The notes under the pieces are model-generated. The model searched no databases and was not told where the DNA came from. It was given only the letters and a program-made list of their open reading frames with translations. Below are positions 38,003 to 41,665 of a DNA stretch of 64,000 nucleotides, piece after piece. The stretch spans positions 1 through 64,000 of the forward strand of contig JAAYGY010000093.1 of the NCBI GenBank assembly GCA_012735575.1. The letters are read 5' to 3'. The stretch comes from Clostridiales bacterium (GTDB lineage Bacteria; Bacillota; Clostridia; Caldicoprobacterales; UBA3941). The translations under genes and the position numbers were made by a program. The number at the start of each line of letters is the position of its first letter. The first letter of the stretch is position 1.

Positions 38003-38551
38003 CTAAAACTGTACTCTGGGTACTTCCCGGTCTCCTTCATCAGCTTGAAAGAATGCCTCCTGCCTAAAGCCAAAGATTGATGCAAATATATTGTTGGGAA
38101 AGGTTTCGATTCTGTTATTATATTTAAGGACTGTATCATTGTAAAACTGTCTGGAATAGCGTATTTTATCCTCTATGTCCCTTAAATTTTGCTGGAGATT
38201 TAGGAAATTGGTATTTGCCTTTAGCTCCGGATAAGCTTCCACTACCACCATAAGCCTGTTAAGAGCCTGGGACAGCGTATTATTGGCATCCATACTCTCC
38301 TGAGGGGTATTGGCACTTAACACACTGCTCCTGGCCTTTACAATCTGATCCAAGGTTTCCTTCTCATGGCTTGCATAGCCTTTCACCGTCTCAACTATGT
38401 TGGGAATAAGGTCCGCCCTGTTCTTTAATTGAACATCAATCTGGGACCATGCATTTCTTACCCTGTTTCTTAAGGTAACAAATCCATTGTATGCAGATAT
38501 GGCATATAAAACTAGCAGAATAACTATGCCTAAAATAATATACACTAACAT
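38003..38551 (-). CDS. lemA: LemA family protein
   Basis: A 182-residue LemA protein. One N-terminal membrane helix (residues 2-18) is followed by a helical domain with the family signature YNGFVTLRNRVRNAWSQIDVQLKNRADLIPN and, later, NTLSQALNRLMVVVEAYPELKAN. LemA proteins sit in the membrane with unknown function. ATG 38551 is used because GGGAGG is just upstream; the longer frame to 38581 has no ribosome binding site. It follows a DUF2207 gene, the usual partner of lemA. Confidence 0.93.
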   Translation of the reverse strand: MLVYIILGIVILLVLYAISAYNGFVTLRNRVRNAWSQIDVQLKNRADLIPNIVETVKGYASHEKETLDQIVKARSSVLSANTPQESMDANNTLSQALNRLMVVVEAYPELKANTNFLNLQQNLRDIEDKIRYSRQFYNDTVLKYNNRIETFPNNIFASIFGFRQEAFFQADEGDREVPRVQF

Positions 38552-38600: not shown

Positions 38601-40541
38601 CTAGAAGGCACCACCGCCTCCACTGCCACCGCCACCGCCAGAGCTGCCCCCGCTAAAACCTCCGCCACTACCACTTGCAGAAGAATCGGGCGAGGCTGCT
38701 ATATCTGCCGTGCTAATAGCATTACTTATGGAATTTGTGGTACTGGCTATCATACTGTTCATTAGTGCTAAATTGCTTAAGGAGCTGTAGCCTCTCATAT
38801 ATGTCAGGGAGGGGTCTGATAGCTCTACTTCACTAAACACCTGAGGAAGCTGATCTATAACCTCTTTGGCTACTCCCAGTGAAATGGCATATACAAGGTA
38901 ATGCTCCCAAATAACAATGGATGGAATCTCAGCCTTATCCATCTGGGAAAAATGGAGTAAAAATCTTTTAAAGGCTTTCCACATAGCTGTCTGCTCCACA
39001 CCATACCTGGTTCTCTTTCTTATGCTGGATACTATAAGCATGGTGATTAAAATTATAAAACCTAGTATCCCCATAACAAATCCCATGCCTGCCTCGAGAA
39101 AGATAACCGATGCAATACCTAGTACCAACAATGCTAAGGCAATTAAGGCATACTTACTGCTGCCCCTTAAATCGTTTTTGGTAAAGAACTCCAACTCTTC
39201 TCCCCGGTCTTTTACCAGGGATTTGAATTTTTCATAATCCTTTTGAAACTGAACTGCCCTGGATCTTTTCTTAAGAATATTCTTTAGGTCGTCCAGGAAC
39301 AGACTTTTACCTCCACCAAGTTTGTCTATAAACCATGATATTAAAAACCTTTCATGGGGATGTAAATCATCCAATGCTACACCATCTATCTTGGATATCT
39401 CGTAATTTTCCTGTATCTTTTTAAATACTAAACCTTTTTCCCTTTCAATTCTGTTAATGGTAATCTTCTTTTTCCGTACCAGATCCATTATTGTAGCCAT
39501 TATATCCTTTGGTTCTATATACCCTTTGGTGAGAAGATAGGTCATTACAGCAGGGGTATAATCTCCTGGCAGCTCTCTATAGTAATCACCCTGAAACTCT
39601 GGTTTAAGATCCCTGGAATACTTTGTAATAAATGCAACTAAAGAGTACAAACCAAATAAAGCAGCTGCAGCAAATAGAGGCCAAACCATGTCCCTAATTT
39701 TTTTCAGCTCTGCCTCTCTTTTTTGCCTTTCCCTTTCTAACTCCTCCTGCCTTCTCATCTCCTCCCTGGCTCGCTCCCTCTCAAGATTGGCTTCTTCGGC
39801 TAATCTTTTTTCATTTTCCAGTATAGAAGGCAGTTTTGTTTCATTGTATACACGACTGGAATCGGGAATAAGCTGGGGTGGGAATATGACCAAGGTTTCC
39901 ACAAAGGTACCGGGTATAATTTCTGGAACTTCGAAGGTAAAGGTCTCTTCATCTACAATCCTGGACACTCCCGTTAAAGGTCCGTGGGCATAGACTTTGA
40001 GATCTTCTTTATTGGCACCTTCAGGAATATTAATAGTAATATGGATATTATCTAAAGGTACATCCCAGTTACTGTCTATAACCTTTCTGTTAAAGACACC
40101 AATATCCTGATATTTTTCAGCTACATTCAAAAGGGTATATTCATAGATAAATGTCTTTTCCTCATAGCTAGATGGTTCATAAACTTTCAGCTTGACCAGG
40201 TTGTCTTCCTGGTTCAGTTCATAAACATTTTCGCCCTGTCCCTCTGACTTCTGGAATTCTCTAATCTCCTGCTCCTGTTCTACCCATACCTTAAGATCTT
40301 CAATACCATCGGTCCTGTCCGTATCTATATCCCTTAGAACTCCATTAAAATCCCCGGCAAAATCATAGGTAATCTCCTCTTTAACATGGGCATCACCGTT
40401 GGGCTGAATATGAATGGTTACTTTATAATTACTGATTTGATAGCTTCTATCATCTGCTACTATATTAAGGGATGGAAAGCATAAGGATATAAAAAGCAGA
40501 GTCAGGATTAGAAAAACTTGGAAAGTTTTTACCCTTTTTAT
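38601..40541 (-). CDS. DUF2207 membrane protein with a non-ATG start (AUA or AUC)
   Basis: The open frame runs without a stop from 40544 to 38601. It encodes a signal peptide (KRVKTFQVFLILTLLFISL), the DUF2207 N-terminal domain (NYKVTIHIQPNGDAHVKEE), a charged coiled segment, three membrane helices and a Gly/Ser-rich tail ending in GGGGAF. No ATG, GTG or TTG occurs before the signal peptide. AAAGGGGG lies 8 bases before ATA at 40541 (ATC at 40544 is the other option). Starting at the first internal TTG (40130) would delete the signal peptide and about 137 residues of the domain. So initiation at AUA/AUC, or a recent start-codon mutation, is likely. About 646 residues. Pairs with lemA downstream. 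Confidence 0.78.
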   Translation of the reverse strand: MKRVKTFQVFLILTLLFISLCFPSLNIVADDRSYQISNYKVTIHIQPNGDAHVKEEITYDFAGDFNGVLRDIDTDRTDGIEDLKVWVEQEQEIREFQKSEGQGENVYELNQEDNLVKLKVYEPSSYEEKTFIYEYTLLNVAEKYQDIGVFNRKVIDSNWDVPLDNIHITINIPEGANKEDLKVYAHGPLTGVSRIVDEETFTFEVPEIIPGTFVETLVIFPPQLIPDSSRVYNETKLPSILENEKRLAEEANLERERAREEMRRQEELERERQKREAELKKIRDMVWPLFAAAALFGLYSLVAFITKYSRDLKPEFQGDYYRELPGDYTPAVMTYLLTKGYIEPKDIMATIMDLVRKKKITINRIEREKGLVFKKIQENYEISKIDGVALDDLHPHERFLISWFIDKLGGGKSLFLDDLKNILKKRSRAVQFQKDYEKFKSLVKDRGEELEFFTKNDLRGSSKYALIALALLVLGIASVIFLEAGMGFVMGILGFIILITMLIVSSIRKRTRYGVEQTAMWKAFKRFLLHFSQMDKAEIPSIVIWEHYLVYAISLGVAKEVIDQLPQVFSEVELSDPSLTYMRGYSSLSNLALMNSMIASTTNSISNAISTADIAASPDSSASGSGGGFSGGSSGGGGGSGGGGAF

Positions 40542-40630
40542 GATTTAAACCCCCTTTACACACCAAATAAGATTTGGTAATTATGTTTATATTTTACCAC
40601 AAAAAATTAGCTACCAAATCATTTATTAAC

Positions 40631-40660
40631 AAAAAAACCAGGCAAAAATTTCGCCCAGTT
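40631..40660 (-). terminator. Rho-independent terminator after the hydroxyacid dehydrogenase gene
   Basis: On the minus-strand RNA AACUGGGC (40660-40653) pairs with GCCUGGUU (40643-40636) using two G-U pairs, followed by a run of U. On the plus strand the same sites mismatch, so it works in one direction only. Confidence 0.75.
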
Positions 40661-40702
40661 TTTTTGATATAGATTCTTTTATATAGATATTATGGATTTA
40701 TG

Positions 40703-41665
40703 CTATGGATTTACTATATTAGCATGATTTCCCTCCAGAAAGGCCTTTATATTCTCTGTTGCTATCTTCATAAGCCTCTGCCGCGCTTCCTTAGTAGCCC
40801 AGGCAATATGAGGAGTGATTATACAGTTTTTTGCTGTAAGAAGAGGGTTATCCTTTGCAGGGGGTTCTTCTGATAAAACATCCAATCCTGCACCTGCAAT
40901 AATACCTTTATTTAAAGCTTCTGCCAGATCCTCCTCTACTACAACAGGACCTCTGGAGGTATTAATAAGGAAGGCTGTTCTCTTCATTTTCCTTAACCTA
41001 TCCATATTGATAAGTCCCCGAGTCTCCTCAAACAGTGGACAATGAAGACTTACCACATCAGATTCCTGTAAAAGCTCATCCAGGGACTCTGCCCATCTAA
41101 AATTTTGCCTGTGGGACTGGTCAGTTTTGGTCCTGCTGTGTGCAATAACTTTCATGCCAAAAACCTGTGCTACATCGGCTACCTTCTGTCCTATTCGGCC
41201 AAACCCTATTATTCCCATAGTCTTGCCTGCCAACTCTATCAAGGGATAGTTCCAAAACGTAAAGTCCTTGCTATTGCTCCAGTCTCCTCTTCTTACAGCA
41301 TTGCTGTGATCCTGAACATGGTAGCAGTGCTCCAATAGTAGGGCAAAAACCAATTGAGCTACGGAATCGGTACTATAGGCTGGTACATTGGTAACAATTA
41401 TATCCCTTTCTTTTGCTGCATCAATATCCACTACATTATATCCCGTAGCCAATACTCCAATATACTTTACATCCGGTAATTTTGACAAGGTTTGTTGACT
41501 AAGAGGAGTTTTGTTGGTCAAAAGGATTTGTGCTCCTTTTGCTCTATCTATAATCAAATTCTCTGGTGTTCTATCGTATATCTCAACATCCCCTAACTCT
41601 CTTATAGGATCCCAGCTTAAATCACCTGGGTTTAGAGCATAACCGTCTAAAACAACAATTTTCAT
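40703..41665 (-). CDS. D-2-hydroxyacid dehydrogenase (glycerate dehydrogenase-like)
   Basis: A 320-residue NAD-dependent dehydrogenase. The Rossmann motif GIIGFGRIGQKVA is at about 150-162, INTSRGPVV carries the active-site Arg, and the catalytic His lies in ITPHIAWAT, with LDVLSEEPP before it. It resembles HprA-type enzymes that reduce hydroxypyruvate or glyoxylate. The product glycerate or a branched hydroxyacid would fit next to serine/glycine genes, though the genes between are unrelated. Normal family length; its own promoter and terminator. Confidence 0.9.
   Translation of the reverse strand: MKIVVLDGYALNPGDLSWDPIRELGDVEIYDRTPENLIIDRAKGAQILLTNKTPLSQQTLSKLPDVKYIGVLATGYNVVDIDAAKERDIIVTNVPAYSTDSVAQLVFALLLEHCYHVQDHSNAVRRGDWSNSKDFTFWNYPLIELAGKTMGIIGFGRIGQKVADVAQVFGMKVIAHSRTKTDQSHRQNFRWAESLDELLQESDVVSLHCPLFEETRGLINMDRLRKMKRTAFLINTSRGPVVVEEDLAEALNKGIIAGAGLDVLSEEPPAKDNPLLTAKNCIITPHIAWATKEARQRLMKIATENIKAFLEGNHANIVNP

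Follow-up and report, generated by a model that had tools for sequence, protein, structure and literature searches.

Where does translation begin in a gene whose reading frame encodes a complete N-terminus, yet offers none of the usual start codons for it? The question is raised by a gene on the minus strand (38601..40541) of the window, as we call the whole stretch of 64,000 nucleotides analysed here; the gene encodes a membrane protein with the Pfam domains DUF2207 and DUF2207_C, of 646 residues when read from an ATA codon. Comparison with related genomes strongly supports non-canonical initiation at this AUA. For the best explanation taken as a whole, in which the AUA at 40541-40539 would be held in place by the Shine-Dalgarno (SD) sequence, read by fMet-tRNA and act as a brake linked to IF3, we estimate a probability of about 0.87.

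The DUF2207 frame and its Shine-Dalgarno sequence

Near position 40550 the minus strand reads GTGTAAAGGGGGTT TAA (40547-40545) ATC (40544-40542) ATA (40541-40539) AAA AGG GTA AAA, and from this TAA the DUF2207 frame is open over 38601-40544, down to its own stop at 38601-38603. The in-frame stop is followed by a single codon, ATC (together 40542..40547, minus strand), before the ATA, which sets the 5' limit of the frame at either ATC or ATA (40539..40541, minus strand). The preliminary description had stated that no ATG, GTG or TTG lies upstream of residue 137, and the earliest in-frame one is the TTG at 40128-40130, residue 138 as counted from the ATA. The residues ahead of this TTG hold a signal-peptide-like N-terminus, IKRVKTFQVFLILTLLFISLCFPSLNIVADD, and more than half of the Pfam DUF2207 domain (PF09972; residues 36-220, E 7.5e-35, 121.1 bits versus a curated cut-off of 24.4), so the signal peptide and the domain claimed for the frame were both recovered; DUF2207_C (PF20990) follows at residues 319-565 (E 3.7e-50, 171.4 bits versus a cut-off of 33).

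The putative start codon stands behind an extended SD sequence, AAAGGGGGT (40548..40556, minus strand), which forms nine contiguous pairs with the anti-SD, one of them G-U (duplex -12.3 kcal/mol), and whose GGGGG is separated from the ATA by exactly 8 nt, in agreement with the strong SD 8 bases upstream that had been described before. The anti-SD, GGATCACCTCCTTTCT, was taken from the 3' ends of the 16S genes of a related genome (G008), because the window's own assembly, like most of the related ones, yielded no 16S gene. The other orthologues have 8 or 9 contiguous pairs with the same anti-SD. In a sample of the window's genome the spacing between GGRGG and ATG peaks at 7-8, so that the ATA occupies the place expected of an ATG. 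The pattern AAGGRGG-N8-ATA occurs at 23 sites genome-wide in the 2.59 Mb assembly (a control pattern at 42), and among these 23 only DUF2207 and ecfA1 open a long frame devoid of ATG, GTG and TTG from the upstream stop to the homologous N-terminus.

Directly downstream of the DUF2207 gene lies a LemA-family gene (38006..38551, minus strand; Pfam LemA, E 6.2e-63), which follows DUF2207 in 7/7 orthologues and also at the loci L038, L010, L046 and L047; upstream there is a D-2-hydroxyacid dehydrogenase gene (40703-41665, minus strand). Just upstream of the SD and below a putative -10 element we found a perfect dyad, ACCAAAT-3-ATTTGGT (ACCAAATAAGATTTGGT, 40562..40578, not assigned to a strand; 0.05 expected by chance), whose core is kept in the sister species (G001) only and not in other genera, and which is possibly an operator or a hairpin of the 5' UTR. 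The possible extended -10 element, TGGTAAAAT (40590..40598, minus strand), which is kept in the sister species, and a hairpin with a T-run in the intergenic stretch (about 40626-40665) were both recognized by eye; the promoter/terminator scan called neither of them.

Conservation of the ATA codon

Among 30 genomes representing the order of the window, seven, including the window's own, harbor an orthologue of the gene, the six others being 60-79% identical to the window protein. Five of the seven sequences are also present in public MAG records (Clostridiales bacterium AS15tlH2ME_109, AS23ysBPME_258 and AS23ysBPME_90; Firmicutes bacterium UBA3941 and UBA4874). The start regions read AAAGGGGGTTTAAATC-ATA-AAAAGG in the window's genome, AAAGGGGGTCTAAGCT-ATA-AAAAGG in the sister species G001, AAGGGGGTAAGAATG-ATA-AAAAAG in G002, AAAGGGGGTAAAGGCC-ATA-TATAGG in G005, AAAGGGGGTAAGGGCT-ATA-TATAAG in G003, GGAGGAGGGTTTATACC-ATA-AAAAAG in G008 and GGAGGAGGGTTGATACC-ATA-AAAAAG in G017, that is, the ATA is invariant in all seven orthologues. 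It is separated from GGRGG by 8 nt in the five genomes of the window's family and by 9 nt in G008 and G017; the extended-SD motif AGGN[AG]T/GGGN[AG]T (PMC13009471) is present in 5/7 orthologues and absent in the latter two.

The codon before the ATA varies: it is ATC in the window's genome, GCT in G001, ATG in G002, GCC in G005, GCT in G003, and ACC in G008 and G017. Of the two near-cognate codons proposed in the preliminary description, AUA and AUC, the first is borne out by its invariance and the second is not, since the preceding codon is not conserved and is GCT in the sister species. The latter reads TAA GCT ATA, with the stop one codon before the ATA, as in the window's genome, which in these two genomes leaves only ATC/GCT or ATA as the start. 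G005 has no standard start upstream of the ATA either. In G002 an ATG immediately precedes the retained ATA and, as its distance from the SD (5 nt) is inside the observed range of spacings, this genome may initiate at the adjacent ATG. In G003, G008 and G017 in-frame ATG, GTG or TTG codons occur about 13 or more codons upstream, so that these three genomes alone do not force the ATA.

Among the 19 internal alignment columns with isoleucine in all seven proteins, not one is ATA throughout (0/19), and ATA accounts for 5/35 of the isoleucine codons of the DUF2207 gene in G008 and for 6/36 in G017. Upstream of the SD-ATA block the ungapped pairwise identity between genera drops to background. Nucleotide differences downstream of the ATA favour third codon positions (82/53/207 over the three positions between the window's genome and G001, 38/23/137 between G005 and G003), and upstream of it this bias is weak or absent (13/11/18 and 4/6/7, respectively), which indicates that coding begins near the ATA and that the gene is under purifying selection. 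A coding extension upstream in G003 and G005 was considered and rejected on the basis of the same 4/6/7 distribution.

Outside the group of seven, the homologue L038 from a Thermoanaerobacterales MAG (55% identical) has GAG-ACC-ATG-AAA-AAA at the equivalent place, the homologue from G182 (49% identical) has GGAGG-8 nt-ATG, and for the more distant DUF2207 homologues examined ATG, TTG or GTG is the apparent start; the ATA was found in the seven orthologues only. In a maximum-likelihood tree these seven and L038 are grouped with full support, the branching of L038 next to the ATA group being unresolved. Since L038, outside the group, has ATG, the ATG-to-ATA change is, judging from these comparisons, old rather than recent. 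The alignment of 5' ends across relatives, which had been named beforehand as a check, thus gave no ATG at the ATA position within the order, an ATG one codon upstream in G002, and an ATG at this position in the outside homologue L038. As to paralogues, the window's genome has a second DUF2207 gene (L002) with a TTG behind AAAAGGGGTGGGAGACT, and the second paralogue of the sister species (L045; G001:C126:10748-12301, minus strand) contains one in-frame TAA.

Near-cognate starts in other genes

The classical gene with a near-cognate start is infC. Its start column is ATT, ATC or ATA in 28/28 genomes, with a GGAGG-type SD at similar spacing, and in some of these infC genes there is also an ATG, two codons before the start column, that lies too near the SD. 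In the window's genome infC, tgt and ecfA1 all lack ATG, GTG or TTG at a plausible place. The ecfA1 gene (G000:C50:14919-15749, plus strand; L104, L120) has a strong SD, AAAGGGGGGAGG. Four genomes of the window's family could be read at its start codon, which is ATC in G002 and ATA in the three others; G003 additionally has an in-frame GTG within the SD. In 23 further genomes of the order the codon is ATG (19), TTG (2) or GTG (1), or an ATG stands next to it (1). The start codon of tgt (G000:C30:85014-86138, minus strand; L154, L202) is ATT in four of five genomes of the window's family and ATA in the fifth (G004), and elsewhere in the order there is an ATG in the same column (11), an ATG one codon upstream (9) or a GTG three codons upstream (1). 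In the window's genome and in G002 an in-frame TGA inside the tgt SD makes any upstream start of this gene impossible.

As for guaB (G000:C89:22162-23616, plus strand; L163, L282), none of the 19 genomes of the order has ATG in the start column, which is ATT in 11 of them and ATA in 8; outside the order there is mostly ATG in or near the same column, with ATT or ATA in a few cases. By this alignment guaB probably starts at ATT/ATA in the order; it is less certain than the others, because initiation could instead occur two or three codons farther upstream, at an in-frame GTG (in G005 a TTG) within or beside the SD.

A home-made gene finder was run over 671 kb of the window's genome and over samples of six other genomes. 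In the 671 kb it called 310 ATG, 47 TTG and 32 GTG starts, and in ten cases its best call was ATA or ATT. We regard infC, DUF2207, ecfA1 and tgt as convincing, guaB and a HAD-type phosphatase as possible, and the remainder of the ten as doubtful. A stricter filter of the same program missed known cases and produced internal false matches, and a search for the pattern GGRGGTRA-N6-ATH yielded convincing matches for infC and tgt only. In the gene of the HAD-type phosphatase (L160; G000:C72:76448-77125, minus strand) the sole SD-supported start would be ATT, in the context ACAAGGGGTGGAAGAT-ATT. ATT is likewise the sole SD-supported start of a frame from another family of the order that resembles, by eye, citramalate/isopropylmalate synthases (L243; G007:C16:21112-22722, plus strand). 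One more frame, similar by eye to CCA-adding enzymes (L164; G000:C89:48526-49677, plus strand), begins within the usual domain and has no SD-supported standard start nearby; it is possibly a frameshifted or truncated gene. Inspection of the alignment by eye for an altered IF3 in the window's family revealed nothing striking, and the initiator tRNA was not found in the sampled genome stretches.

A possible brake on translation, its alternatives and known precedents

Other starts are absent from the 5' part of the DUF2207 frame, the ATA, the SD and the spacing are conserved, and the same arrangement is present in other genes. How the codon would work is suggested by precedent, from which we infer decoding by the initiator tRNA, a low yield and dependence on IF3. 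The strong, optimally spaced, extended SD helix would keep the AUA positioned in the P site of the ribosome, to be read there by the initiator fMet-tRNA (anticodon CAU) with a third-base mismatch, and the DUF2207 protein would consequently begin with methionine. As a poor start codon, discriminated against by IF3, the AUA may serve as a fixed brake keeping this membrane protein low, and it could couple DUF2207 output to the level of IF3 or to the fidelity of initiation, as has been suggested for infC, pcnB and ccpN.

The AUA could also be a start that arose by nearly neutral drift and is tolerated behind a strong SD with no regulatory brake, which is a variant of the above explanation, so that the confidences of the two overlap. 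Such drift would account for the replacement of ATG by ATA, ATT or ATC behind strong SDs in tgt, ecfA1 and DUF2207 of the window's family, and for the ATG adjoining the ATA in G002; it accounts less well for the retention of the DUF2207 ATA over family-level divergence and of the guaB ATT/ATA throughout the order, given that a single-base change would easily restore ATG in either gene. Because the ATA persists across two families, we consider the brake the rather probable interpretation and tolerated drift an unlikely, though serious, one.

Much less probable is a start in another upstream frame, for example at a TTG or GTG at about 40560, with a frameshift near the A-rich stretch that brings the ribosome into the DUF2207 frame. 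In the window's genome no stop interrupts the frame TTG GTG TGT AAA GGG GGT at the site, and slippage can occur on A-rich stretches such as A AAA AAG; in G001, however, the matching frames run into a stop at CTA TAA or lack a start, the relatives have no upstream frame in common, single-base indels upstream set G008 and G017 apart, and the items that are conserved are the SD, the spacing and the ATA. We give slightly less credit still to a start at the downstream TTG or at another non-standard codon. Although no standard start codon precedes the TTG at 40128-40130 in frame, this TTG corresponds to GTA, CTA, CTA, CTT, CGG and CGG in the relatives, has no SD, and would cost the protein its signal peptide and about half of the conserved domain; the AUC at 40544-40542 is replaced in every relative, as listed above, and an internal CTG is contradicted by the sister species, where CTG is absent from the first 36 codons. 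Finally, the other alternative of the preliminary description, a recent ATG-to-ATA mutation, or else a sequencing error, that truly or apparently removed the start in the window's genome alone, is refuted, despite the single base that separates ATA from ATG and the ATG of L038, since the ATA recurs in independently assembled genomes of the sister species and of three other genera in two families (G001, G003, G005, G008 and G017, with ATG-ATA in G002), and purifying selection acts on the gene.

To our knowledge, only a handful of chromosomal bacterial genes with an AUA or AUU start are known, and initiation at the DUF2207 AUA would add to this very small kind a conserved case in an unrelated protein. 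Gene finders restricted to ATG, GTG and TTG are blind to such genes. The same pattern in tgt, ecfA1 and probably guaB suggests that aligning start columns across genomes can reveal near-cognate starts in place of a separate experiment for each, and it makes the regulatory question testable, as a joint response of the near-cognate-start genes of one genome to IF3 or to the supply of fMet-tRNA. It is conceivable, and we put it forward quite tentatively, that in this order of uncultured, Clostridia-like Bacillota selection has repeatedly made use of AUA, AUU and AUC starts as a device on a definable group of genes, namely infC and guaB throughout the order, tgt and ecfA1 within the window's family, and DUF2207 in two families; these genes would form a translational regulon jointly responsive to the IF3 level, fMet-tRNA formylation or GTP supply; if so, gene callers limited to ATG, GTG and TTG would truncate such proteins or misplace their starts.

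In Staphylococcus aureus, ribosome profiling with retapamulin revealed initiation at the AUA of infC and ccpN and at the AUU of cvfC1, all of them with strong extended SDs, and in poor medium reporter fusions of ccpN (AUA), citZ (AUA) and cvfC1 (AUU) reached about 10% of the yield with AUG, a figure that for ccpN rose to as much as 30% in rich medium (PMC13009471). In Escherichia coli the near-cognate AUU starts of infC and pcnB limit translation, according to the work cited there (PMC13009471). The DUF2207 gene resembles other DUF2207/DUF2207_C-LemA pairs in its domains and in its LemA neighbour, and differs from them in the start, which appears to be ATG, GTG or TTG in the other homologues checked. 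The E. coli genes, as far as they are characterized in that citation, share with it the near-cognate start, but theirs is AUU rather than AUA, they encode regulatory or RNA-processing proteins, and they were studied experimentally. The closest likeness is to ccpN, infC and cvfC1 of S. aureus, also a member of Bacillota, in the AUA or AUU start, in the strong extended SD at a fixed spacing and in the conservation among relatives; in S. aureus, however, initiation was demonstrated by ribosome profiling and reporters, whereas the putative start of DUF2207, an unrelated membrane protein, is deduced from sequence.
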